Of a DNA stretch of 55,374 nucleotides, positions 237-55,313 are shown in pieces (position 1 is the stretch's first letter; each line of letters begins with the position of its first letter). Made by a program: the position numbers and the translations under genes. The DNA is taken from NCBI GenBank assembly GCA_945860285.1, contig CAMAQB010000010.1, positions 1-55,374 on the forward strand, written 5' to 3'. The notes under the pieces were generated by a model. The model did not search any database. It worked only from the letters and a program-made list of their open reading frames with translations, and was not told the origin of the DNA. This stretch comes from Akkermansia muciniphila. Lineage in GTDB: Bacteria; Verrucomicrobiota; Verrucomicrobiia; Verrucomicrobiales; Akkermansiaceae.

Positions 237-593
237 TTACATGATGTAGCAGAGAACTTTCTCCGAGCAGGTCATTTGTCCGGCGGTGAGGGTTTTGCGG
301 GCACTGCGGGCATCGAGCTGGTAGGCCACGAGTTTATCTTCCTCGTGATTGATGATGTCATTGAGGGCACTCCAGAGGTATTCAAAATGCAGATCATTCA
401 GGCGGCATTCGAAGACCGAGTATTGGACGCGGAATCCATGATCTTCCAAAGTTTTAGCAACCTTGGAAAGACGTTTGGGGTTGCTAATGTCGTAGGCAAT
501 GAGGATGAGCATTTGTTTGTTTCCGGGGGCTTTCCATTCACGGGGCATTGCCGGGAAGGCATCTTCCCACCAGGTGTCTGTGCTGTCGCTCAT
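237..593 (-). CDS. cas2: CRISPR-associated endonuclease Cas2
   Basis: Cas2 is the small dimeric partner of Cas1 in the spacer-integration complex. The core has the ferredoxin-like start LILIAYDIS with the conserved Asp (residue 35 of the 118-residue form), then a helix with NPKRLSKVAKTLEDHG and a strand with VQYSVFEC, all typical. The ATG at 593 gives a 27-residue Trp-containing N-terminal extension. The ATG at 512 would give a standard 91-residue Cas2, with a weak GGA 10 nt before it. The longer form is listed because it leaves only 24 bp after cas1. It is the last cas gene before the leader. Family call is firm; the start is open. Confidence 0.9.
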   Translation of the reverse strand: MSDSTDTWWEDAFPAMPREWKAPGNKQMLILIAYDISNPKRLSKVAKTLEDHGFRVQYSVFECRLNDLHFEYLWSALNDIINHEEDKLVAYQLDARSARKTLTAGQMTCSEKVLCYIM

Positions 594-617: not shown

Positions 618-1634
618 TCAATTCATGCGGAACGGTTGATAGGCATCAGGGCGTTCGAGTGCGGCTTTGAACTGGGCGGCATCCTGCTGGATTTGTGCGC
701 GCAGGGTGGTGCGGTGACCGCGGTGTTCGGAGAGAAATTCCCGTTCCATGCGTTTTTCGTATTGGAGGATCAATCGTTTGCGTCCGAGCGGGGTGAGGTA
801 AATGCCGCCCTCCTGCGGGTGAAAGTGTTTTTCGCAGAGAATGCCACGGGAGAGCAGGTCGATGGTGAGCGGCTCGACGATGACAGGCCGATAGGGCTCC
901 ATGAGGTCGAGGGCGAGAGACCAGCGGCCGTTCTCGGTGACATGATAAACGCCGAGGCCGGGGTCCAGACCGCAACTGTGGAGGGCACTGGTCATTTCGT
1001 GATAGAGGATCGAGGAGGTGAAGGAGAGAATGGCATTGACTGGATTGTGGGGAGGACGGCGCGAGCGTTTTTCGAAAGGAAAGCTATGGGGAAGGAATTG
1101 CGCCCAGTTTTGGAACCAGAGAGCGGCGGCCTGGCCCTCGGTGCCGAGAAGATGGGAGAGGCCCGTGGAGTTTTCGGCTTGTTTGATGGCGTTGCCCAGT
1201 GTGATGATGGTGTTGCCGAGTTGTGCCTCGCGGGTGTGGGCGAGTCGCTGGAGGGCGCGGCGTTGGTTGTAGATCTTGGCGGCGACAAGGCGCCGGGCCA
1301 TGGTGAGGGTGAATGCGGTGTCTTGCGACAGATTGTATTGGCGCAGCCTCCATTGGGCATGGGCGGGGGTGGCGGGCTGGATGCTGCCGAGCAGGCTTTC
1401 GCCGTAGTTGGCAATGATGACCAGCGGGATGGTTTCGCGCATCAGTGCAGCGATGGCGGGGCCGGATATCGTGATGTTCTCCGAGACGCTGAGGCGGTCG
1501 AGGTCGAGCAGGGGGATGCTGCGTTTGATTTCGACCTCGCGGTCTTGTTCGTCGAGGAGCACGCCGGAAAGTTCCAGGCGTTTTGATTCGAGGCGGATGG
1601 TACCGCGGAGAAGGTCGATCCAGGCAGAGGGCAT
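618..1634 (-). CDS. cas1: CRISPR-associated endonuclease/integrase Cas1
   Basis: This is the integrase subunit of CRISPR adaptation, about 338 residues from the ATG at 1634; an in-frame TTG at 1652 would add six. The metal-binding triad is present: Glu166 in LLGTEGQAA, His231 in LDPGLGVYHV and Asp243 in WSLALDLMEPYRP. The N-terminal beta-domain (about 1-85) and the C-terminal helical domain are both complete, so the protein looks functional. It reads straight into cas2 after 24 bp and follows the NE0113 gene after a 57-75 bp gap that holds a tandem CGCGGATGT repeat (1673-1691). Cas1 alone does not fix the CRISPR subtype; the CARF neighbours point to type III. Confidence 0.95.
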   Translation of the reverse strand: MPSAWIDLLRGTIRLESKRLELSGVLLDEQDREVEIKRSIPLLDLDRLSVSENITISGPAIAALMRETIPLVIIANYGESLLGSIQPATPAHAQWRLRQYNLSQDTAFTLTMARRLVAAKIYNQRRALQRLAHTREAQLGNTIITLGNAIKQAENSTGLSHLLGTEGQAAALWFQNWAQFLPHSFPFEKRSRRPPHNPVNAILSFTSSILYHEMTSALHSCGLDPGLGVYHVTENGRWSLALDLMEPYRPVIVEPLTIDLLSRGILCEKHFHPQEGGIYLTPLGRKRLILQYEKRMEREFLSEHRGHRTTLRAQIQQDAAQFKAALERPDAYQPFRMN

Positions 1635-1709
1635 GGAGACAGGAATAGGCAAAGGTGCAGAGGGCGCAAGAACGCGGATGTCCGCGGATGTAGTGGCGCC
1701 GGGGGTGAC

Positions 1710-2756
1710 TCACTCGATGAGGCGGAACGGGGCCTGCTGGAGGGTGCGTCTGGTGGGGCTCCATGGTGCTTTGGCGAGAATGTCGCGGAGGTGATGGAGT
1801 TCGCGGCGGAAGTCGCTTTCGTCGAAGTTGGGATGATCGATGTGGCCGAGTGTCGCCCGTTTCTGGTCGTACCATGACTGGAAAGCCGTGGCGGCGGAGA
1901 TTTGATCCCGGGGGATTTGGTCCTTTAGATTGCATTCGAGAATGAAGTGAAGGATGGCGAGAGCGCGGGCGCGGACCGGGTAGGGGGTGTCGTCGACATG
2001 GAGAGTGCCACTGCGGTGGTCGATGCGGATGGGGATTTCGCGTGCGGATTCCTGCTGGAGTCGGCGGGCTAGGGAGTCGCGCAAGTCCAGGTAAGAGCCG
2101 GGGAGTTCATCAAGTTCACGGAATTTATTGCGCAGTGAGACGAAGGGCAAGTCGGCGAGGTGGAGACGCGCGGAAGAGGCTTCGTAGGCGCGGCCCTCGC
2201 GGGAGAGCAGCGGACTGCCTGGCTGCGAGGGGAAGAAAAAGCCGGGCAGGGCATCGAAGGGAGGATCGACAAGGATATGTGTGAGCCGATCATTTTCCCT
2301 GCCGATCAGCGAGACCGCTGAGTGGAGCAGTGCACCCATGGTCTTTCTGCCGCCGGCGATCGAGGCTATGAGATGGTTGTTGCGGTCGCGCACGATGTCC
2401 CAGACTGCGGCGAAGATGCATTCTGCAGCGGCGTGATTGTCGTTGGGGGTGACGATGTCCTCCAGCGGAGCGGTGCGGCCCTCTCTGGCATTCGGGTAGT
2501 GGATGATACGCGGAGCCTCGGCGATCAGTTGGCGGTCATTCGTCCCGAGGATTCGGCGCAGGGATTCCCATACAGTGATGTTGCCCCATTCCAGCAATGG
2601 GGTGAATAATTGTTCCTGGAGTTTTGCCGCGCCGGTCAGGGTGGTAATGAAAGCCACGCGTTCCGGAAGGACGGCGGGTTTTTCGCGAGCGAGTGCGAAG
2701 ATTGTCTCAGTGACAATCGCGGGAGATAGGCCGGTGACGGCGAGCAGGGTGGTCAT
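1710..2756 (-). CDS. NE0113-family CARF protein, probable cOA ring nuclease
   Basis: The 348-residue protein opens with a Rossmann-like strand and loop, TTLLAVTGLSPAIVTETI, and carries SIAGGRKTM at 132-140, the signature I associate with the NE0113 family (SSO2081-like ring-nuclease superfamily). Such proteins bind and cleave cyclic oligoadenylates made by Cas10, switching off the type III response. Residues about 245-340 look like a winged-helix-type C-terminal domain. No HEPN RxxxxH motif was noticed, which argues against a Csm6-type RNase. The ATG overlaps the stop of the upstream Card1-like gene by 4 nt, implying coupled translation. Family call is fairly secure; catalytic activity is inferred. 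Confidence 0.78.
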   Translation of the reverse strand: MTTLLAVTGLSPAIVTETIFALAREKPAVLPERVAFITTLTGAAKLQEQLFTPLLEWGNITVWESLRRILGTNDRQLIAEAPRIIHYPNAREGRTAPLEDIVTPNDNHAAAECIFAAVWDIVRDRNNHLIASIAGGRKTMGALLHSAVSLIGRENDRLTHILVDPPFDALPGFFFPSQPGSPLLSREGRAYEASSARLHLADLPFVSLRNKFRELDELPGSYLDLRDSLARRLQQESAREIPIRIDHRSGTLHVDDTPYPVRARALAILHFILECNLKDQIPRDQISAATAFQSWYDQKRATLGHIDHPNFDESDFRRELHHLRDILAKAPWSPTRRTLQQAPFRLIE

Positions 2757-3949
2757 GGTGGAATGGGTTGAGTGCTAAGCGAAGCGGGGCTGGCTTCATT
2801 CGTGGGGTAGAGTTCACCGGCGAGGAGAATTTTGACATTCAGTTGCCTGCCGTACTGACGGATTGTGTTCGCTTGATCGGCATTTTTAGTTTGGAAAAGA
2901 AACAGACAGGCAGTGGCGAATTTTCCGCCGAGGCGATCAGCGCGATCACGGAGCGACGCGAGATGTTCAAGCGGATTGACGTGTGCAAGAGATGACTTGC
3001 AGGAAAAGATGGCTAGGCTGAACTTATCAGTATCCACAGCTACGATGTCGGTTTCGCCATAGTCCTCCCGCTGGTGTATGGCTGGCTCAACACTCCAGTG
3101 GAGATCGGCGTATTTTGGATCCGTCAGCAAATGATTGTATAATACCAGTTCGAGCCAGGTGCCTTCGATCAGGTTGGCAATGGACTCTACTTCACTGCGC
3201 TTGGTGGCATTGAGGAAAAAGGAACCAGATAGATCGGAGCGAATCAAATTGGCGGCGCAAGCGGCATCAAGGAGTTGCTCCACCGGCTCTGACTGCGCAC
3301 GGGGAAGGGGCTTCAAGAGCATAGTTTTTAGCTGCCCTTTGTCCGGGATTTTGCCGTCTTCGCCGCGCACCTGCTTGCGCAGTTCGGCAAGCCAGGCACC
3401 GAGTTGTTGATGGTATTGCGTGTGCAGAATTCCCGCGCTGCGTCCGAATTTTTGGAGTTTTTCCGTCACTGGCTTGCTCTTCCATGCGCTTTCGTCCTTA
3501 CCGTGAGCGGCCATGAGGATCTTGAGCGACAAGCGATTTACCAGGCTTGCCATGTCTGACATATCTGGCAGGGTAGCAGTACCCGCCGACAGCCACGATT
3601 TTGTGCGGGTGTGACAATAAAAAGCCGGAACCTTGTGCTCCGTAGCTGCCGACCAGGCACCGATGCTCATGAGTTTTGTGCCGCCGGTGAGATTAATAAC
3701 ACAGGGAGAATCTGCAGGTAGGTTTTTGATAATAGCGTTGTGCGTTTCCTGCCAAGAAGGGAAATCGCTGGGGAGAATCTCTTCGATGAATTCTGCCGAG
3801 ATGCCTGCCAGTTTGAGGGCGTTTTTTTCATTGGGGATCGAATTTTTACTGACCTGTGAAGCAATAAAAACTAGCCGCTTCGGTAGCAGTGCCATCGCGG
3901 GGAGGACATTCTGCATGGTTTGCTCACTAACGAGATGGATGAGTGTCAT
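2753..3949 (-). CDS. Card1/Can2-like CARF nuclease (DUF1887 type)
   Basis: The 398-residue protein has an N-terminal CARF domain (about 1-150), with TLIHLVSEQTMQNVLPA and the cOA-pocket motif NLTGGTKLMSIGAW (Gly89-Lys92). A linker or winged-helix region follows, then a C-terminal restriction-endonuclease fold (about 255-380). Card1 and Can2 are cA4-activated nucleases with this layout. In the nuclease part Glu267 (GTWLELVLY) and Asp301 (GETDIVAV) are present, but the ExK motif reads FSCKSS, with Ser316 where Glu is usual and Lys318 kept. It may be weakly active, may use another residue, or may belong to a natural S-x-K branch. Both gene ends overlap their neighbours by 4 nt (ATGA). Confidence 0.8.
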   Translation of the reverse strand: MTLIHLVSEQTMQNVLPAMALLPKRLVFIASQVSKNSIPNEKNALKLAGISAEFIEEILPSDFPSWQETHNAIIKNLPADSPCVINLTGGTKLMSIGAWSAATEHKVPAFYCHTRTKSWLSAGTATLPDMSDMASLVNRLSLKILMAAHGKDESAWKSKPVTEKLQKFGRSAGILHTQYHQQLGAWLAELRKQVRGEDGKIPDKGQLKTMLLKPLPRAQSEPVEQLLDAACAANLIRSDLSGSFFLNATKRSEVESIANLIEGTWLELVLYNHLLTDPKYADLHWSVEPAIHQREDYGETDIVAVDTDKFSLAIFSCKSSLAHVNPLEHLASLRDRADRLGGKFATACLFLFQTKNADQANTIRQYGRQLNVKILLAGELYPTNEASPASLSTQPIPP

Positions 3950-5769
3950 GGTTTTGTGATTCCGGGTTGGATACTTGATGAAATGAAACGCTTCAAAGAG
4001 TTTTTCGCTGCAGGAGGGAGAAAGCTCATATCGACCGCATTAGCAATAAGCTGCAGCAGATCCATGCGAGTTAGATCAGGGCAGAGTTGGGCGGCAAGCA
4101 GGAAGTTTTCGCTGAGTGAGGCAGCCGAAATGCCGATGTTGTCAGTGTTGATACTGACACAAACGCGGCGGTCGAGGTATATTTTCAATGGGTAGGTAAA
4201 GTCTTTGCTCCGCAAATGATAGCCTTTGATTTGGGCGTTAGCGTAGGGGCACATTTCCACGCCGATGCCGCGGGCGGCTACGCTTTGCAACAGTTCAGGG
4301 GAGTCGATGAGGTGGAGGGCGTGGCCGAGACGGCGTGCATTCAGGTCAAAAACCGCACGCCAGATCGCTTCGGCATCGTCGATTTCTCCTGCATGGGCTG
4401 TGAGCGCCAGTCCGCAGCGATGGACGGCGGAAAATTCCTCGCGGAAATAATGGGCACGGGTGGTGGCATCTTCAAAGCCTGCAAGATCGACACCAACCAC
4501 CCGGCATTCCTCTTGATTTGTCCAATGTTCCGCAGCGGTGACGGCGAGTGCCAGATGCCGGGAAATCGCCGCGCGATAGTCACCCTTATCTTTGCGAGTG
4601 GCGATGACGATCAGATTGATGTGGCAGCGGCTGGTGGGAAAATTGGCGCTGCCAGCGGTGTGCGCGTTCATGCATTCATCAAAGTGATGTTTGATGTCGC
4701 TGAGCACCTGCCAAGACGAGCGACCGGTGGAGGTGTAGTTGGCCGGCGAACAGCGGATTTCGGCATAGCAAACGTTTTGTTCTAACAGGTTTTGGTAGAG
4801 TAGTTCGCATTGCTTTTTGAGGCAGCCGGGGTCAAATAACAGAGCTGAGCCGTTGGCATCTCCGAGTTTCATATATTCGTTGAGAGAGATGGCTTTATCG
4901 GGCAATGGCCATGAGTCGGGAAATGCATGCTCCTCTAGAAGAACCAGTGTTCCATCTGCCGCTGCGCGGACTTGCGCGAGTAGGCTGCCGTGGGTGGCGA
5001 AGCCGCCAAGATGGCTGTGTAGTTCTACTTTCGGCAAGCTGCTGATCCATGCTGCTTCGGTGGAGGCGTTCAGCGGTTGCATCAACCAATCGATGTCTGC
5101 TGTTGTCCATGTGGCGAGGTCTTGGAAAGGAAAATTGCCTAAAATTTCCCAACTGTCGGCGATGCGATGTGAGCGTTCGACGATGGATCTTACGTGATTA
5201 CGGAGAGTATGGTTCGGACATTCGACCCAGCGGGTATGGTTTTCTAGCTTCGCTGTTGTGAGAGGGTAAGAAGTTGACGCTACAACGCGCAGTTGTGGCC
5301 AGCCCGATTCTGGACCGAGGCGCACCCAGTGAATCTCATTTTGCTTGAGGGCAGCGGCGATTTCTTCGTCCGTGCTTGGGTTTTTTGGGCACAATACATG
5401 AAAGACCTCGGCGGCTCCGAATATTGCAGCGGCCTTTTGCATGGCTGCGGACATCGTCTTGTAACCTCCCGCTATGCTGACATATATTTGTCCATCAGCA
5501 TGTTCGAGCATCCAACGGAAGAGAATTTCCTCGAAGCGAAAATGATCTTCTTCATTGGAAAAATCCCCAAACCCCGCCACATGGGTAATCGTTAGCATCA
5601 CTTCCGGAGCGTTTTGGGAAAACCATTTTCTCACAAATTCGACACTTGCCGCGATCTTTGGTCCGTCGGTGGTAATCACATGCACTGCGGAAAAATCCAC
5701 ATCAGGCAGGTGAAATGCTTCCGGCACTATGGCGGGAGTGGTTCCCAGGGAAATGAGCAGCGAAGGCAT
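3946..5769 (-). CDS. cad1: CARF-adenosine deaminase fusion (Cad1 type)
   Basis: This 607-residue protein (from the ATG at 5769) joins a CARF-like domain to a complete adenosine deaminase. Residues 1-165 begin PSLLISLGTTPAIVPEAF and carry SIAGGYKTM (98-106), close to the motif in the neighbouring NE0113 protein. The deaminase spans about 245-600: His251/His253 (ELHSHLGG), RCSP (339-342), DLAGFED, His459 and Glu462 (HAGE), His483 (RLGHAL) and Asp543 (INTDN). These are the zinc ligands and catalytic Glu of ADA; the usual second Asp is Asn544. Cad1 proteins are reported to deaminate ATP to ITP when cOA binds, halting growth of infected cells. The substrate here is inferred from that family. A TTG at 5805 could add 12 residues. 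Confidence 0.88.
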   Translation of the reverse strand: MPSLLISLGTTPAIVPEAFHLPDVDFSAVHVITTDGPKIAASVEFVRKWFSQNAPEVMLTITHVAGFGDFSNEEDHFRFEEILFRWMLEHADGQIYVSIAGGYKTMSAAMQKAAAIFGAAEVFHVLCPKNPSTDEEIAAALKQNEIHWVRLGPESGWPQLRVVASTSYPLTTAKLENHTRWVECPNHTLRNHVRSIVERSHRIADSWEILGNFPFQDLATWTTADIDWLMQPLNASTEAAWISSLPKVELHSHLGGFATHGSLLAQVRAAADGTLVLLEEHAFPDSWPLPDKAISLNEYMKLGDANGSALLFDPGCLKKQCELLYQNLLEQNVCYAEIRCSPANYTSTGRSSWQVLSDIKHHFDECMNAHTAGSANFPTSRCHINLIVIATRKDKGDYRAAISRHLALAVTAAEHWTNQEECRVVGVDLAGFEDATTRAHYFREEFSAVHRCGLALTAHAGEIDDAEAIWRAVFDLNARRLGHALHLIDSPELLQSVAARGIGVEMCPYANAQIKGYHLRSKDFTYPLKIYLDRRVCVSINTDNIGISAASLSENFLLAAQLCPDLTRMDLLQLIANAVDMSFLPPAAKNSLKRFISSSIQPGITKP

Positions 5770-5813
5770 GTCGGCAAGTAGAGCGGAGCCGCCGGATTTT
5801 GGCAATCACGCAT

Positions 5814-5827
5814 ACATCCGCGGATGT
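5814..5827. repeat. 14-bp palindrome ACATCCGCGGATGT
   Basis: A perfect 14-bp palindrome in the gap between the exonuclease gene and the CARF-deaminase gene, both transcribed leftward. It could be an operator for the CARF cassette. Related sequence occurs at 1673-1691, upstream of cas1, and at 21114-21125, upstream of the metal ATPase, so it may instead be a dispersed intergenic motif. Confidence 0.4.
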
Positions 5828-27181: not shown

Positions 27182-28105
27182 ATGAAATCGAACCGCAATC
27201 CCGAAGACCCATCCAGCAACCGCAAGGGCGGGATGCCGTTTTGGGAGAAAATGCAGTCGAAAAAAAAGGCTGTCCCCGCCGCCAAAAAAAAGAACTTTGA
27301 CGAAAATCAACCGCCTGCATCGGTAGTCAGGAAATCGATGGCGGCAGGTGAAAAAGGCTGGGACCAGGTGGCGCAGTGGTACGATCAATTGGTCGGGGAC
27401 CACGGTTCGGACTATCACAAGAATCTGATCATGCCCGCCGTGATGGCCCGGCTCCCGCAGCTCAAGGGTGCGCGCGTGATCGACATCTGCTGCGGCCAGG
27501 GCTTCGCGGGCAAACTGCTCAGGCAGGCTGGCGCGACGCTGGTTCACGGTGTCGACGCCAGCCCGCGCTTGATCGATGCCGCACGCAAACGCGCTGTGGC
27601 GGACAACGGCCTGAGTTATGAAGTCGCCGATGCCTGCGTCCCCGGGGCCTGGGCCGATGGCTCCTATGACATCGCTTTGAACATCATGGCCGTACACGAT
27701 GTGCCGGATCTGCCGGTACTTTGCAAAAACATCGCCCGATCACTGCAAAAGAATGGTCGGGTGATTCTGGTGTTCATGCACCCCTGTTTTCGCATTCCTA
27801 AACAGTCGCACTGGGGCTGGGATGCCGACAAAAAAGTGCAGTTCCGCCGCATCGACCGCTACGGCTCCGCGGTGGAAATCCCGATCACCACCCATCCGGG
27901 TCGTTCTTCGGGAGAATCGACGGTTTTTTATCATCGTCCGCTCTCCGCTTATGTTGCCGCCTTGAGCGATGCTGGCCTGGCGGTGACAGGATGCGACGAA
28001 TTGTGCAGTCATCGGCGTTCCCAAGAGGGACTGCGCAGCAAGGCCGAACATTTCGCCGCGGCGGAATTTCCGCTGTTCCTGTTGTTAGAGGCTTTTGTTG
28101 TCTGA
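27182..28105 (+). CDS. Class I SAM-dependent methyltransferase
   Basis: The 307-residue protein has a Lys-rich, disordered N-terminal 50 residues followed by a methyltransferase domain. Motif I is ARVIDICCGQGFAGKLL (Asp101, Gly105, Gly107), the acidic ribose ligand is in VHGVDASPRLIDAA, and YDIALNIMAVHDVPDL matches motif IV. The substrate is unknown. It follows recR by 8 bp in the same operon, although a role in recombination is not implied. Its end overlaps the convergent Nudix gene by 21 bp. Confidence 0.88.
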   Translation: MKSNRNPEDPSSNRKGGMPFWEKMQSKKKAVPAAKKKNFDENQPPASVVRKSMAAGEKGWDQVAQWYDQLVGDHGSDYHKNLIMPAVMARLPQLKGARVIDICCGQGFAGKLLRQAGATLVHGVDASPRLIDAARKRAVADNGLSYEVADACVPGAWADGSYDIALNIMAVHDVPDLPVLCKNIARSLQKNGRVILVFMHPCFRIPKQSHWGWDADKKVQFRRIDRYGSAVEIPITTHPGRSSGESTVFYHRPLSAYVAALSDAGLAVTGCDELCSHRRSQEGLRSKAEHFAAAEFPLFLLLEAFVV

Positions 28106-28711
28106 TAGATGGGCGATGCAGTGCTGCGACCAGGTTTCGAGCTGTCCGAACAAGGGACCGCGCAACTCCGCAAGCGACGTGAATCCGAGATCCGTTAGAG
28201 CATCCTCGCGCGACTGCACGTCGGCGTTTTCCAGGTCGACCAGATGCACGATGCCGAGGTGGACCTGACCGACCGGATTGCTGTCGTCGTTCAGCAAGGC
28301 GATGATCCGGCTGGTGCGCGGACCGGAGAGAAGCAATTCCTCATCGAGTTCGCGCGCCACGGCGGCGAAGTAGGCCTCCGGCCCGGTGCGGCCATCACCG
28401 GTGTCAATCGGGTTGATGTGGCCGCCGACACCGACCGAGATTTTCGCATGCAGCCGGCTTTCCCCGCCCGCTTTGCCGCGGGTGTAATGGAGGATTTTGT
28501 CGCCGCAGCGGAAAACGCAATAAGGGATCAACTGCTTGTGACTCGGATCCTCCTCTGCGATGCCGCGATCCATGAAAAAATGATTTTCCGGTTCGAGCAG
28601 GCTGGCGATGGCCGGGTCGATGTCACCGGTGAGGATGCCGTGAAACTCGCCGATTTCATCGAATAGCGAGCGACGGACGACGAGAACTTTTTCCCCTGCG
28701 TATTTGGACAT
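28085..28711 (-). CDS. Nudix-domain hydrolase
   Basis: The 208-residue protein has a Nudix box with a slightly enlarged loop: GGHINP at 96-101, Glu112, then ARELDEEL with Arg120, Glu121, Glu124 and Glu125 as the metal-binding core. Nudix enzymes cleave nucleoside diphosphates linked to another group; the substrate cannot be read here. The N-terminal 90 residues (KVLVVRRSLFDEIGEF and FFMDRGIAEEDPSHKQLIPY) form a family-specific lead domain. It is monocistronic and converges on the methyltransferase gene. Confidence 0.85.
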   Translation of the reverse strand: MSKYAGEKVLVVRRSLFDEIGEFHGILTGDIDPAIASLLEPENHFFMDRGIAEEDPSHKQLIPYCVFRCGDKILHYTRGKAGGESRLHAKISVGVGGHINPIDTGDGRTGPEAYFAAVARELDEELLLSGPRTSRIIALLNDDSNPVGQVHLGIVHLVDLENADVQSREDALTDLGFTSLAELRGPLFGQLETWSQHCIAHLSDNKSL

Positions 28712-49267: not shown

Positions 49268-52200
49268 GTGGCAAAAAAAAGAGAACAGGGAGCGTTGATC
49301 CGCATAGTCGGTGCCAGGCAGCACAATCTGAAATCGCTGGACCTCGACATTGCCCACGGCACGCTGACCGTTGTGACCGGTCCCTCGGGATCGGGAAAAT
49401 CATCGCTGGCATTTCACACGTTGTACGCGGAAGGGCAGCGCCGCTACGTGGAAACATTTTCCCCTTACATCCGGCAGTTTTTCGACCGCATGGACAAGCC
49501 GGATGTGGAATCGATCGAGGGAATTCTGCCGGCCATTGCGATCGAACAAAAAAACCATGTCCGCAGCACCCGCTCCACGGTCGGCACTCTAACGGAAATC
49601 AACGACTATTTGAAAGTGTTTTTCGCCCGCGCTGCGAGGGGATACGATCCGCACAGTGGCGAAGAAATCCGTCCGGATTCGCCGGAGTCCGCAATTTTAT
49701 GGTTGCGGGAGAACAAAGCCGGGCAGGCGATGTTGGTTTGCTTTTCCGTCAAGGTTCCGGCCGCTGCCAGCCCGGTGGATTTTTTCCCGATGCTCGCGCA
49801 GCAGGGATTCATGCGGGTGCTTCTCTATGGGGAAATCTGCCGCACCGATGAACCGGAGTTGTGCAAGCACGCCCAACTTCCCGCGGAGATTCTGGTCGTG
49901 CAGGATCGGCAGACAGTCGCGAAAACGAAATCCGCCCGCTTGTTGGAGTCGCTCGAAGCCGCCGCGTTGCACGGACGGGGACGTTTCACCATCGCGCCTG
50001 CCGACGATTTGATCGCTGGCATGAAAACCTTCAGTCATGATTGGGTCAATCCCGCCACCGGGTTCCGGCTTTGCGAACCGAGTGCGGGATTGTTTTCCTT
50101 TAACAGTCCGCGCGGCGCTTGTGAAAAATGTCGAGGTTTCGGTCGGGTCATCGGCATCGATCTGGCGAAAGCGGTTCCCGATCCCTCGCTGTCGATCCGC
50201 GGAGGTGTCATCAAACCGTTTCAAGGTGAGCGCGGCGGGGAATGCCAGCGCGACCTGCTCCGTTGCTGCAAAGCACGGGGTATCAGTGTCACCACCCCAT
50301 GGGAGGATCTGTCGGACGAGGATCGCGAGTGGATCAACTACGGGGAAGGTGGCGACCCCGATGAAAATTACCGCGACGGCTTGTGGTACGGGATCAAGGG
50401 ATTTTTCGACTGGATGGAGACCAAGGCCTACAAGATGCACGTGAGGGTGTTTCTCTCCCGTTACCGATCCTACACCGAGTGTCCCGCCTGCCGGGGCAAA
50501 CGATTGCGACCCGAGGCCCTGTGTTTCCGGGTCGATGGCATGTCCCTTCCCGAGATCTGGCAAATGCCGGTCAACCGGCTGGCCGGGTGGTTCGATCGGT
50601 TCAAAACAAATGAACCAGCGTTGGAACGGGTGCGCTTGGAGATTCACTCGCGCCTGCGCTATCTCGATGATGTCGGTCTTGGTTATCTCACTCTCGACCG
50701 CCAGACACGCACCCTGTCCGGCGGCGAAATGGAACGGGTCAACCTGACCACCTGCCTCGGGGCGGCGTTGACGAACACGCTTTTTGTTCTCGATGAGCCG
50801 ACCGTCGGTTTGCATGCACGCGACATCCAACGGCTGGTGACAGTCATGAAAGGACTGCGCGACAAAGGAAATACGCTGGTCGTGGTGGAGCACGAAGAAG
50901 CGGTGATGGTCGCCGCGGATGAAATCATCGACCTCGGTCCCGGGGCCGGGGACTTCGGTGGTCAACTCGTCTATCAGGGGCCGGCGGTGAATGCGCGGCA
51001 ACAACAGGGCACCATTCCCTGGCTCGATGGGCGAAAGTCGATTCCCTTGCCCACGAAGCGTCGTGCACCGGGAAATCAGGAAATCGTGATTCGCGGAGCG
51101 AGCCTGCACAACATCAGAAAGCTCGATTTCACATTGCCCTTGGGAATGTTCGTATGCATGACCGGCGTTTCCGGCTCCGGCAAATCCACCCTGGCTCACA
51201 ATGTTCTCTATCTGAACCTCCTGCGCAAACTGGGCAAAGAGCAGAGCGGGGAATCCGCCGCCGCATCGATCAAAAGCCTCACCGGTTCGCAGTATCTAAC
51301 GGATGTGCTGCTGGTCGATCAAACATCGCTGGCGCGCACGCCTCGCTCGACACCCGCCGTGTTTTGCGGTGCGTTCGAACTGCTGCGCCAGTTGATGGCC
51401 GAAACGGACCAGGCCCGCGCTTCGTCGATCCAGGCGGGATATTTTTCCTTCAATTCCGGGGAAGGACGCTGCGACCGCTGCACCGGGGCGGGTTATGAAA
51501 AAGTAGAAATGCAGTTTCTCAGCGACATCCAGGTGACCTGTCCGGATTGCAATGGCCGCCGCTACCGGCCCTCGGCCCTGGAATTCACTCTGGCGGGAAA
51601 ATCAATCGCCGACATCCTCGAGCTGACGGTTTCCGCGGCACTCGAATTTTTGCAGGAATTGAACAAGGCATCCACCAAAAAGTCCACCTCGCTGGCCCGA
51701 AAAACCAGCGAGTTGCTGCTGCCACTCGAACGTGTCGGACTCGGCTATCTGCGCCTCGGCCAGCCGCTAAACACCTTGAGCGGCGGTGAATCGCAGCGAT
51801 TGAAACTCTGTCAGTTGTTGGATCCGAAAACCGGCGGGGGCAAGCTGTTGATTCTCGATGAACCAACGACGGGACTGCATTTTTCCGATATCGCGACTCT
51901 GTTAGGCGTGTTCCAGCAACTCGTCGATGCCGGAAACAGCCTGCTGGTGATCGAACATCAATTGGATGTCATGGCCGCGGCCGACTGTTTGATCGACCTC
52001 GGTCCCGGCGCGGGCGAGGAAGGCGGGCAGATCATCGCCGCAGGACCTCCGGAAAGCGTGGCGCAGAGCGGATCCGAAACGGCGCATTATCTGCGTGGAA
52101 AACTGGGAATGAAAATGCCAGCCGTGCGACCACAGCGATTGAAATCGGTGGAGAGCCAACCACAGCGCAATGAAATCTCCCTGCATGGCGCACGACACCA

Positions 52201-54793
52201 CAACTTGAAAAATGTCTCGCTTAATATTCCTCGCGATCAGTTCGTGGTCATTTCCGGTTTGAGCGGGTCGGGGAAATCGACGCTGGCATTCGACATTCTT
52301 TTCGCCGAGGGGCAGCGGCGTTTTCTCGACTCGATGTCGGCCTATGCACGACAGTTCGCCGATCAGTTGGAAAAACCGGAAATCGACCACCTGAGCGGGT
52401 TGCCGCCGACGGTTGCGATCGAACAACGCATTTCCCAGGGCGGTGGCAAGTCGACGGTGGCCACGATCACCGAGGTCTGGAATTTCATCCGTCTTCTGTA
52501 TGCCAAGCTCGGCACTCGCCATTGCTGCGGCCACCCGGTCGAGAAACAATCGTTGAGTGCAATGGAGCAAACGCTGCGCCTTGCGGTGAAAAAGGGTCCG
52601 GTGAAATTGTTCGCCCCGCTGATCCGCGGTCGCAAGGGCTATCACAACGAAGTCGCGGAGTGGGCCTTGAAACACGGCTATCATGTCATGTTGGCGGATC
52701 GCAAGATCATCGAGGCGGAGAATTTCCAACGCTTGGAACGATTCAAGGAACACGATGTCGATGTCATGATCGCGGAGTTCCATTCCGATTCTGAGCCGAT
52801 CGCCGAGAAACTGGAGGAAGCATTGAAAATCGGCAAGGGCACGGTGAGGCTTCTAACAGCCGACAAAAGGTTTCACGTTCTTTCCTCAAGCCAGTCATGC
52901 GCAACCTGCGGCACTTCGTATGAAGACCTCGACCCCCGCGATTTTTCTTTCAACTCGCCGCATGGCTGGTGTCCCGAGTGTCGAGGTTACGGCAAGGTGC
53001 CGCACAAACACCGTGCTCTTGATGCGTCGCGATTCGACTCGATGCTGGCCGCGGAGGTTGACGATGAGCGCTCGATGGAGCGCATGGACGACGACGAACT
53101 GGTCACTTGTCCCGGTTGCAAGGGCGTGCGCTTGAATGCGGCATCCCGACAGGTGCAATTGGAGCATCGTGCGATCGAATCCCTATCGCGGCTTTCCATC
53201 GCCGAGGCCGCGGGTTATTTCGATACCCTGAGTTTCACAGAAAAACGCCGGCAGATGATCGCACGCGACATCATTCCCGAGATTCACCAGCGCCTGCGTT
53301 TCCTTGCGAATGTCGGGCTCGGCTACCTGCAATTGGATCGCTCGGCGCGCACGCTTTCCGGAGGTGAAAGCCAGCGCATCCGCCTCGCGGCGCAGTTGGG
53401 TTCGAACCTTCGCGGCGTGCTGTATGTTCTCGATGAACCGACGATCGGCCTTCATCCGCGCGACAACGCCGCATTGCTGGACACCCTGGTGGCTTTGCGC
53501 GACCGCGGAAATTCGCTCGTAGTGGTGGAGCACGACGAGGACACCATCGCCCGTGCCGACTGGCTGATCGACCTCGGTCCTGCGGCTGGCAGGCTCGGCG
53601 GACAGGTGGTGTATGAGGGCAAACCACCACGTTTGGGTGCTCGCATGGGCAGCAAAGCGGCACGGGAAATTTCCCCCACTTTGCGGGCCATGGCCATGCA
53701 TTCCACGCACCCAAGCCGAGGTGAGCGCCGGCCGGTCGGAAAAAATCGCACGTTTCTCTCGCTCGACGGCTGCCACGCCAACAACCTGAAAAAGATCGGC
53801 GTGAAAATTCCGTTAGGGTGTCTGACGGTGCTCACCGGTGTTTCCGGTTCGGGAAAATCCTCGCTGATGCACGGCTGCATTGCCGTTGCGGCGCGAAAAT
53901 CCAAATCCGCCAAATCATCGCCGCCTCCCTTCACCCGCAGCGCCCATTTCGATTTGCTGGAAGCGGTTTACGAGGTCGATCAATCACCCATCGGCAAAAC
54001 CTCGCGATCCTGTCCCGCAACCTACGTCGGTATTTTCGATGACATCCGCAAGGTTTTCGCCCAGTTGCCTGAGTCGCGCGCTCGAGGCTACGAGGCCTCG
54101 CGATTTTCGTTCAATACCGATGGCGGACGCTGCGAAGAGTGCAAAGGCAACGGCCGGATCAAACTGGAAATGGATTTCCTGCCTTCGACATGGGTGCCCT
54201 GCGAGGTTTGCCAGGGCGAGCGTTACAACAGCGCCACGCTCGAAGTTGCCTATCGCGACAAGTCAATCGCCGATGTGCTCAACATGACCATCGAGGAGGC
54301 GGCGGCCTTTTTTGCAACCCACAGCCGACTGGCCGAACCGCTGCGGCTGCTCAATGAAACCGGTCTCGGCTATCTGACAATCGGCCAGGCCTCGCCGACG
54401 CTTTCGGGTGGCGAAGCCCAGCGCATCAAGCTTGTCAGCGAAATCGCCCGCGGTCGCTCGCTGCGCAAGCGCATGGCGACCCTCGGCAATGCGAAAGGCA
54501 ATCTTTATCTGATCGAGGAGCCCACCGTGGGACTTCATCTCGAGGACGTGCGGCGTTTGATCGACGTCATGCATCGCATGGTTGACGAAGGTCACACGCT
54601 CGTTGTCATCGAACACCACATGGCGCTGGCGGCCGAGGCCGACTGGGTGATCGATCTCGGCCCCGAAGCCGGTGAGGGCGGGGGCCAACTGGTGGCACAG
54701 GGTCCGCCGGAAAAAGTCGTCCTTTGCAAACAATCCCGCACCGCACCATTTCTCGCCGCCCAGTTGGGTGACCAAACCGTAACACAGTTTTGA
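49268..54793 (+). CDS. uvrA: Double-length UvrA with four ATPase sites
   Basis: The 1841-residue protein starts at a GTG and is two UvrA-like proteins fused head to tail, about 1-950 and 955-1841. Four Walker A motifs (GxSGSGKS(S/T)) are at 38, 633, 997 and 1524, and four LSGGE signatures are at about 484, 838, 1364 and 1713. Walker B/D-loop reads LDEPT in the first three and LIEEPT in the fourth (about 1749). Zinc-type CxxC pairs are seen (CEKC, CPAC, CDRC, CPDC, CATC, CPEC, CPGC, CEEC, CEVC). UvrA dimers find bulky DNA damage in nucleotide excision repair; tandem forms could act as a covalent dimer. Its stop codon touches the mobile-element insertion. Confidence 0.93.
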   Translation: MAKKREQGALIRIVGARQHNLKSLDLDIAHGTLTVVTGPSGSGKSSLAFHTLYAEGQRRYVETFSPYIRQFFDRMDKPDVESIEGILPAIAIEQKNHVRSTRSTVGTLTEINDYLKVFFARAARGYDPHSGEEIRPDSPESAILWLRENKAGQAMLVCFSVKVPAAASPVDFFPMLAQQGFMRVLLYGEICRTDEPELCKHAQLPAEILVVQDRQTVAKTKSARLLESLEAAALHGRGRFTIAPADDLIAGMKTFSHDWVNPATGFRLCEPSAGLFSFNSPRGACEKCRGFGRVIGIDLAKAVPDPSLSIRGGVIKPFQGERGGECQRDLLRCCKARGISVTTPWEDLSDEDREWINYGEGGDPDENYRDGLWYGIKGFFDWMETKAYKMHVRVFLSRYRSYTECPACRGKRLRPEALCFRVDGMSLPEIWQMPVNRLAGWFDRFKTNEPALERVRLEIHSRLRYLDDVGLGYLTLDRQTRTLSGGEMERVNLTTCLGAALTNTLFVLDEPTVGLHARDIQRLVTVMKGLRDKGNTLVVVEHEEAVMVAADEIIDLGPGAGDFGGQLVYQGPAVNARQQQGTIPWLDGRKSIPLPTKRRAPGNQEIVIRGASLHNIRKLDFTLPLGMFVCMTGVSGSGKSTLAHNVLYLNLLRKLGKEQSGESAAASIKSLTGSQYLTDVLLVDQTSLARTPRSTPAVFCGAFELLRQLMAETDQARASSIQAGYFSFNSGEGRCDRCTGAGYEKVEMQFLSDIQVTCPDCNGRRYRPSALEFTLAGKSIADILELTVSAALEFLQELNKASTKKSTSLARKTSELLLPLERVGLGYLRLGQPLNTLSGGESQRLKLCQLLDPKTGGGKLLILDEPTTGLHFSDIATLLGVFQQLVDAGNSLLVIEHQLDVMAAADCLIDLGPGAGEEGGQIIAAGPPESVAQSGSETAHYLRGKLGMKMPAVRPQRLKSVESQPQRNEISLHGARHHNLKNVSLNIPRDQFVVISGLSGSGKSTLAFDILFAEGQRRFLDSMSAYARQFADQLEKPEIDHLSGLPPTVAIEQRISQGGGKSTVATITEVWNFIRLLYAKLGTRHCCGHPVEKQSLSAMEQTLRLAVKKGPVKLFAPLIRGRKGYHNEVAEWALKHGYHVMLADRKIIEAENFQRLERFKEHDVDVMIAEFHSDSEPIAEKLEEALKIGKGTVRLLTADKRFHVLSSSQSCATCGTSYEDLDPRDFSFNSPHGWCPECRGYGKVPHKHRALDASRFDSMLAAEVDDERSMERMDDDELVTCPGCKGVRLNAASRQVQLEHRAIESLSRLSIAEAAGYFDTLSFTEKRRQMIARDIIPEIHQRLRFLANVGLGYLQLDRSARTLSGGESQRIRLAAQLGSNLRGVLYVLDEPTIGLHPRDNAALLDTLVALRDRGNSLVVVEHDEDTIARADWLIDLGPAAGRLGGQVVYEGKPPRLGARMGSKAAREISPTLRAMAMHSTHPSRGERRPVGKNRTFLSLDGCHANNLKKIGVKIPLGCLTVLTGVSGSGKSSLMHGCIAVAARKSKSAKSSPPPFTRSAHFDLLEAVYEVDQSPIGKTSRSCPATYVGIFDDIRKVFAQLPESRARGYEASRFSFNTDGGRCEECKGNGRIKLEMDFLPSTWVPCEVCQGERYNSATLEVAYRDKSIADVLNMTIEEAAAFFATHSRLAEPLRLLNETGLGYLTIGQASPTLSGGEAQRIKLVSEIARGRSLRKRMATLGNAKGNLYLIEEPTVGLHLEDVRRLIDVMHRMVDEGHTLVVIEHHMALAAEADWVIDLGPEAGEGGGQLVAQGPPEKVVLCKQSRTAPFLAAQLGDQTVTQF

Positions 54794-54801: not shown

Positions 54802-55052
54802 CACGGCGATCAAGCTAGGGAAAGGATTGACAAGAAATGTCGCAATCAAAAAGGTAGGGAACGATCTCCGAGCGTTCCGGTGGGGGACGGTCGCGGATCA
54901 CCCTAACCTGATCTACCTTCACCCCACGCCCTCGTGCGCCAAAAACGCCGATGAGTCAGGAAGGAAGATGACCCGTCAACCATCCTGCCCCCACCGGATC
55001 GCTAGGAACAGCGTTCCCTGCCTTTGAGCATCTCCCTGGCTTGATCGCCGTG
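54802..55052 (+). mobile_element. MITE-like element, copy 1
   Basis: This 251-bp element has terminal inverted repeats: CACGGCGATCAAGCTAGGGA at the left end against TCCCTGGCTTGATCGCCGTG at the right (19 of 20 matched). Inner inverted segments also pair (AAAGGTAGGGAACG with CGTTCCCTGCCTTT; TCCGGTGGGGG with CCCCCACCGGA), so the whole element could fold into a long hairpin. It has no transposase gene and would depend on one elsewhere. A 66-codon open frame (54827-55027) has no known match. Confidence 0.75.
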
Positions 55053-55062
55053 CAAATACTTT

Positions 55063-55313
55063 CACGGCGATCAAGCTAGGGAAAGGATTGACAAGAAATG
55101 TCGCAATCAAAAAGGCAGGGAACGATCTCCGAGCGTTCCGGTGGTGGACGGTCGCGGATCACCCTAACCTGATCTGCCTTCACCCCACGCCCTCGTGCGC
55201 CAATAACGCCGATGAGTCAGGAAGAAAGATGACCCGTCAACCATCCTGCCCCCACCGGATCGCTAGGGACAGCGATCCCTGCCTTTGAGCATCTCCCTAG
55301 CTTGATCGCCGTG
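55063..55313 (+). mobile_element. MITE-like element, copy 2
   Basis: This second 251-bp copy has the same orientation as the first, separated from it by 10 bp (CAAATACTTT). I count 8 differences between the copies, about 97% identity. Its terminal inverted repeats match at 20 of 20 positions. The spacer is the same length as the outer target duplication, suggesting the pair arose as a tandem and then moved together. Confidence 0.75.

Follow-up and report, generated by a model that had tools for sequence, protein, structure and literature searches.

Type III CRISPR-Cas loci that carry several effectors are already known, yet their regulation is not. Among these effectors, the Cad1 enzymes, in which a CARF domain is fused to an adenosine deaminase (ADA), convert ATP into ITP upon binding of cyclic oligoadenylate (cOA) (PMC11645235, PMC12669630), and one of them, TaqCad1 from Thermoanaerobaculum, itself degrades cA4 (PMC12669630). 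In the Card1/Can2 group, two substitutions, one of them at the ExK Glu, served to make the inactivated form of TsuCan2 (PMC7969007). Can1-2 effectors lack a ring nuclease activity of their own and are often accompanied by a ring nuclease. Two ring nucleases occur together in only about 4% of the loci that have any, and Csx16 is a ring nuclease of confirmed activity (PMC12409355). Csa3, a transcription factor in which CARF is joined to a winged helix (PMC8844856, PMC8699464), is listed as a cA4 binder without degradation (review PMC9704534). For the NE0113 family, named "ring nuclease Csm6" at NCBI, a role in transcription regulation was predicted in a 2014 analysis (PMC4012209), beyond which the open-access literature yielded nothing on its function.

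The window analyzed here spans contig C10 in full (C10:1-55374; 55,374 nt), from a 3.7-Mb Akkermansia muciniphila genome in 162 contigs (98% complete), and it carries one gene of each of the Cad1, Card1/Can2 and NE0113 groups (Table 1). At both junctions between these CARF genes, stop and next start overlap by exactly 4 nt (ATGA), as the first-pass annotation had described, and the three genes form one translationally coupled unit in a type III context. The family assignments of that annotation also held. It had further let the unit read into cas1-cas2; these genes do follow, but only after 57 nt (75 nt if counted to the cas1 ATG), and the gap contains a candidate promoter element of its own, so that read-through is uncertain.

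Table 1. Coordinates of the cassette, its flanking elements and the cad1-linked NUDIX genes of related loci (positions refer to the window unless a locus is given).
Feature	Position	Strand	Size	Remarks
cad1-type CARF-adenosine deaminase	3946..5769	(-)	607-619 aa	ATG at 5769, alternative TTG at 5805
Card1/Can2-fold CARF protein	2753..3949	(-)	398 aa	variant nuclease motif (E299, D301, S316-C-K318)
NE0113-family protein	1710..2756	(-)		ring-nuclease-type CARF (1-210) and OmpR-like winged helix (about 236-348), predicted
cas1	618..1634	(-)		ATG at 1634, TTG at 1652; PF01867 7.2e-75
cas2	237..593	(-)		PF09827 8.3e-22
Single CRISPR repeat at contig end	2..36	(-)		identical to the array repeat preceding cas10-cmr on C27
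Tandem 10-bp-period element TACATCC-GCG-GACATCC	1676..1692	(-)		42 nt upstream of cas1 ATG; TTG 6 nt downstream
Perfect palindrome ACATCCGCGGATGT	5814..5827	(.)	14 bp	45 nt upstream of cad1 ATG
NUDIX-family gene	L007:11842-12507, L009:11863-12501, L010:3706-4374, L011:11872-12492, L013:2272-2889, L026:10636-11265		about 210 aa	directly after cad1

The first-pass reading had been made to hinge on a cas10 gene somewhere in the genome, and one is present on contig C27. The 35-nt repeat of the window end recurs there in 20 copies at the contig start, of which 19 are exact and the final one has two mismatches. Behind this array come a DUF6261 ORF, cas10, cmr3, cmr4, a PIN-like ORF, cmr5, cmr6 and cmr1, and the Cas10 translation carries both GGDD and an N-terminal HD motif. 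With cas10, cmr1, cmr3-6 and a matching CRISPR array, the genome contains a type III-B system; because the repeat is common to both contigs, we infer one type III-B locus divided over C10 and C27, its linkage being unassembled. A Cas6 of PF10040 had no match in the genome. An apparent 3′ end of an ORF precedes the C27 array (1-145), so that an insertion element or an extra gene may separate cas2 from the array. Between the DUF6261 ORF and the cas10 promoter downstream of it lie six imperfect tandem repeats of 41 bp (C27 1709-2521 and 2497-2812). PIN-domain (VapC-like) or toxin-antitoxin-like genes lie in or beside cmr/CARF operons on C27 (8379-8771) and in three other loci (L016 9541-9939; L025 490-882; L026 11296-11993). 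A motif block (IDLGPGAG...GGQ-like) that resembles UvrA-type ATPase repeats occurs four times near the far end of the window, together with a 261-bp near-perfect tandem duplication (50856-54702 and 54802-55313).

By sequence, the window Cad1 belongs firmly to the characterized family and is unremarkable within it. It matches the PADLOC model CARF5-CARF_ADA (PDLC01908) over residues 15-612 (E 1.5e-164) and PDB 8z3k over 598 aa (1.7e-220), with 9c67 as a further full-length match; CARF is thus fused to ADA over the full length, and HxH, HAGE, GHAL, TD and GGxK are all present in an alignment of the window protein with its relatives, ELHSHLGG, TAHAGE, LGHALH, NTDNIG and the CARF GGYK being intact. 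It shares this architecture, the Zn/catalytic motifs and the type III neighborhood with known Cad1 enzymes (PMC11645235, PMC12669630; PDB 8z3k, 9c67, 9ebt), from which it differs in that its ligand and its activity on ATP are predicted, its locus is of type III-B and shared with Card1-like and NE0113 proteins, and no NUDIX gene is linked to it. Moreover, motif I of its own CARF reads GTT instead of GTS, which makes self-cleavage of cOA by this Cad1 less certain.

The Card1-like protein passes the cut-off of CARF_Card1 (PF23400, E 1.2e-11), while the PF09002 nuclease model, at 22.3 bits, stays below its cut-off of 26.4. Its AlphaFold model (pLDDT 92) is predicted to have the full Card1/Can2 fold, CARF plus PD-(D/E)xK, aligning with VC1899, Card1 and Can2 at Z 25.4, 24.6 and 24.3 (325-348 residues), and at Z 21-25 over 317-365 residues overall. 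The first-pass annotation had named missing CARF pockets as a ground for rejection; CARF domains are found in both predicted structures, this one and that of the NE0113 protein. The whole-length fold, the CARF GGTK and the nuclease-domain E-x-D and Lys are as in Card1, Can2 and VC1899 (PMC7969007; PDB 6xl1, 7bdv, 1xmx), unlike which the window protein has S-C-K for E-C-K, a partly conserved acid in the next helix and the low Pfam nuclease score. D301 and K318 correspond to Card1 D294 and K310, yet Card1 E308 is replaced by S316, and the canonical E-x-K is therefore read here as S316-C317-K318, a motif common to the eight aligned sequences of the SCK subfamily. A Glu or Asp follows about ten residues after the Lys in most, not all, members (E328 in the window protein). 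In some PD-(D/E)xK enzymes the acidic residue has moved to such a place after the Lys, as in Cfr10I, with S-V-K and a later Glu; a catalytic role for the E328-type acid is a guess. Of the "Card1/Can2-like nuclease" that had been proposed, then, the fold stands, whereas the Ser in place of the ExK Glu leaves nuclease activity not assured, and we file the protein as Card1-like with a variant site instead of canonical Card1/Can2. Elsewhere, the nuclease motif of the Card1-like protein L080 (G234:C11:47633-48745) is degenerate, and the profiles used recognized no cas or CARF genes within about 8 kb of it.

The third protein appears to go beyond a ring nuclease, since its sequence and model indicate a CARF domain with both ring-nuclease motifs and an OmpR-like winged helix at the C-terminus. 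Membership is clear from TIGR02584 (E 1.9e-56; 191.4 bits against a cut-off of 80.65) and PF09623 (84.8 against 23). In the AlphaFold model (pLDDT 88), the CARF aligns with the Cad1 CARF at Z 16 and with the ring nucleases Sis0455 and Sso2081 at about 15, alignments that cover mainly residues 1-237 and say little on the C-terminal domain. Motif I (G9-L10-S11) and motif II (G136-R137-K138) equal G9-T10-S11 and G104-R105-K106 of Sso2081; across 36 NE0113 sequences, G9, G136, R137 and K138 are invariant and S11 is kept in at least 90%. Since Pfam recognized Trans_reg_C at the C-terminus of only one of the 36 members (E 0.24), profile comparison was used. It matched OmpR C-terminal domains with an hhalign probability of 94% (E 1.2e-7) over 35 columns only, while five column-shuffled and several unrelated control profiles all stayed below 0.5%; relatives from Gammaproteobacteria and Rhodothermus gave an OmpR-type match too (84%). 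The modeled order, strand-strand-strand-helix-helix-helix-strand, fits a winged helix, with a C-terminal wing of low confidence. A sequence search of the PDB returned no match, and no NE0113 protein was found in phages.

Compared with TIGR02584/Crn1 ring nucleases (Sso2081, Sis0455; PMC10018336), the NE0113 protein thus has the same CARF fold and the same two motifs, but an additional OmpR-like domain and an associated promoter element; at about 350 aa it also exceeds the 250-aa limit used in a ring-nuclease survey (PMC12409355). Like Csa3, it is encoded in CRISPR loci and links CARF to a winged helix; it differs in its OmpR-like type, its ring-nuclease motifs, its bacterial type III-B locus and the tandem 10-bp element. 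On Allochromatium and Aeromonas plasmids, NE0113 occurs in a locus with an annotated csx16. On a Vibrio casei plasmid (L198 13115-14389), NE0113 overlaps a gene of the ADP-ribosylglycohydrolase family, followed by a metallophosphoesterase, with no annotated cas genes nearby.

The gene order, for which the first-pass annotation had advised a search of Verrucomicrobiota genomes, recurs in about ten further loci, most of them verrucomicrobial, and many have a NUDIX gene behind cad1. Within contig limits, L006-L013 and L026 read (cas10-cmr3-4-5-6-1)-cad1-(NUDIX)-Card1-like-NE0113-cas1-cas2, L026 with additional inserted genes, and L073 is such a locus with a broken cad1. The cassette represents a variant form, itself conserved, of type III-B loci with multiple effectors, and several loci keep an ATP deaminase together with a Card1-fold protein. 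CARF-ADA itself is scarce in the phylum, with full-length, partial or broken copies in about a dozen of 387 genomes (further matches were to the ADA part alone), and none was found on plasmids at 1e-40. The Card1-like slot is modular, being filled in the cassette and related loci by three subfamilies with ECK, DCK or SCK motifs. Two distant ones interchange at one operon position, DCK in L008 and L010-L013 and SCK in the window, L006, L007, L009 and L026.

The NUDIX gene linked to cad1 in L007-L011, L013 and L026 is absent from L006, L012 and the window. It is plausibly a partner that hydrolyzes ITP or other nucleotides; the open-access literature yielded nothing on Cad1 with NUDIX. A stand-alone NUDIX homologue in the window (28085-28711, minus strand), 38% identical to the cad1-linked protein, was considered as the missing partner and rejected: it occurs in 28 of the 29 genomes searched and looks like a housekeeping gene. 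The cad1-linked NUDIX may derive from this stand-alone type.

The cad1-upstream palindrome and the cas1-upstream tandem repeat together gave the pattern GACRTCC-N3-GACRTCC. With at most 2 mismatches the palindrome occurs only twice in the 55 kb, at both ends of the cassette; it contains the half-site and is a weak variant of the element at the cad1 promoter. In 39 NE0113-associated loci (377 kb) the pattern had 24 matches with ≤1 mismatch, near-palindromic sites being counted on both strands, whereas 150 permuted units averaged 0.7 matches and reached 9 at most; enrichment was confined to the 10-bp period. No match fell inside profile-recognized genes, most lying upstream of cas1, cas10, NE0113 or cmr4; C27 carries a two-mismatch copy at the cas10 promoter and a perfect copy at cmr4. 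The genome G000 and those of L006 and L007 each contain two copies of the exact core ACRTCC-N4-ACRTCC, and all six of these copies lie in type III loci; in the G290 and G412 genomes the core also occurs outside the type III locus. Loci without NE0113 (232 kb) had two matches, and the consensus was not found in gammaproteobacterial NE0113 loci or in Rhodothermus plasmid loci.

Downstream of the 24 oriented sites, TTG follows at 5-7 nt in 7 cases (0.8 expected) and TANNNT at 28-30 nt in 11 (1.1 expected), a spacing that points to a sigma70-like promoter with a 17-bp spacer directly downstream of the element. The element would then sit at about -58 to -42 of these candidate promoters, the position at which OmpR-type activators act, and cas1-cas2 are apparently served by a separate promoter that bears a conserved element.

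These observations can be brought together in a reading that we consider evenly poised between right and wrong: as the signaling and adaptation part of a type III-B (Cmr) locus, the cassette with cas1-cas2 would supply two cOA effectors together with a transcription regulator that senses cOA, limits itself and acts on that very locus. Upon recognition of foreign RNA, Cas10 would make cyclic oligoadenylate, most likely cA4; Cad1 would turn ATP into ITP and, provided that its S-x-K site works, the Card1-like protein would cut nucleic acid, giving two parallel responses. The NE0113 product would sense the same molecule through its ring-nuclease-type CARF, bind with its winged helix the tandem element upstream of the -35 before cas1, cas10, cmr4 or NE0113, and adjust expression of the locus until its own ligand is cleaved. 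From the position of the site, activation is more likely than repression.

The first-pass annotation took the NE0113 protein for a plain off-switch, which the near-invariant motifs in 36 relatives, the Z of about 15 to Crn1 enzymes, the NCBI name and the habit of Can1-2 effectors of being accompanied by a ring nuclease all favor. The C-terminus would then be a dimerization or remnant domain, and the element would be bound by an unrelated regulator, a possibility raised by L019 and G290, which have the element without an adjacent NE0113 gene (L075 ends inside cad1). Yet profile comparison recovers the OmpR-like domain in Verrucomicrobiota and again, independently, among other phyla, a companion csx16 on the plasmids would make two ring nucleases in one locus, which is rarely seen, and transcription regulation had been predicted earlier; this alternative is rather unlikely in our view, and off-switch is at best half of the role. 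Conversely, NE0113 could be a pure, Csa3-like cOA sensor and transcription factor, with cOA removed by the CARF of Cad1 or by dilution. The winged helix and the element agree with this, as do degradation of cA4 by TaqCad1 and binding without degradation by Csa3, but the Ser of motif I and the Arg-Lys of motif II are kept in NE0113 and the window Cad1 has GTT; we regard such a division of labor as improbable.

As for the effectors, the Card1-like protein may be a catalytically dead or non-nuclease cOA binder, a sponge or scaffold, leaving Cad1 as the sole effector. Replacement of the ExK Glu by Ser in the S-x-K subfamily, the inclusion of that Glu in the inactivating TsuCan2 double mutant and the plainly degenerate relative L080 speak for it; against it, the helix Glu267, E299, D301 and K318 remain conserved, most members have an acid about 10 residues past the Lys, and conservation across divergent species argues for function. 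We regard this alternative, too, as doubtful.

Returning to the self-limiting regulator, the most interesting part of the cassette is its third gene with the candidate regulon. The NE0113 family appears to be a regulator with a recognizable promoter element, which suggests that database names mislead, and the recurrence of that element before CRISPR genes suggests that the defense controls its own expression. Perhaps the family as a whole consists of cOA-sensing, cOA-cleaving OmpR-type regulators that, in Verrucomicrobiota, act through the tandem operator to place cas10/cmr, cas1-cas2 and the effectors in a self-timed feedback loop, a generalization offered tentatively and with somewhat less than even confidence. 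If this is true, the ring-nuclease CARF of NE0113 would be a timer, and a foreign-RNA signal would directly alter expression of the spacer-acquisition genes, linking interference to adaptation in bacteria.
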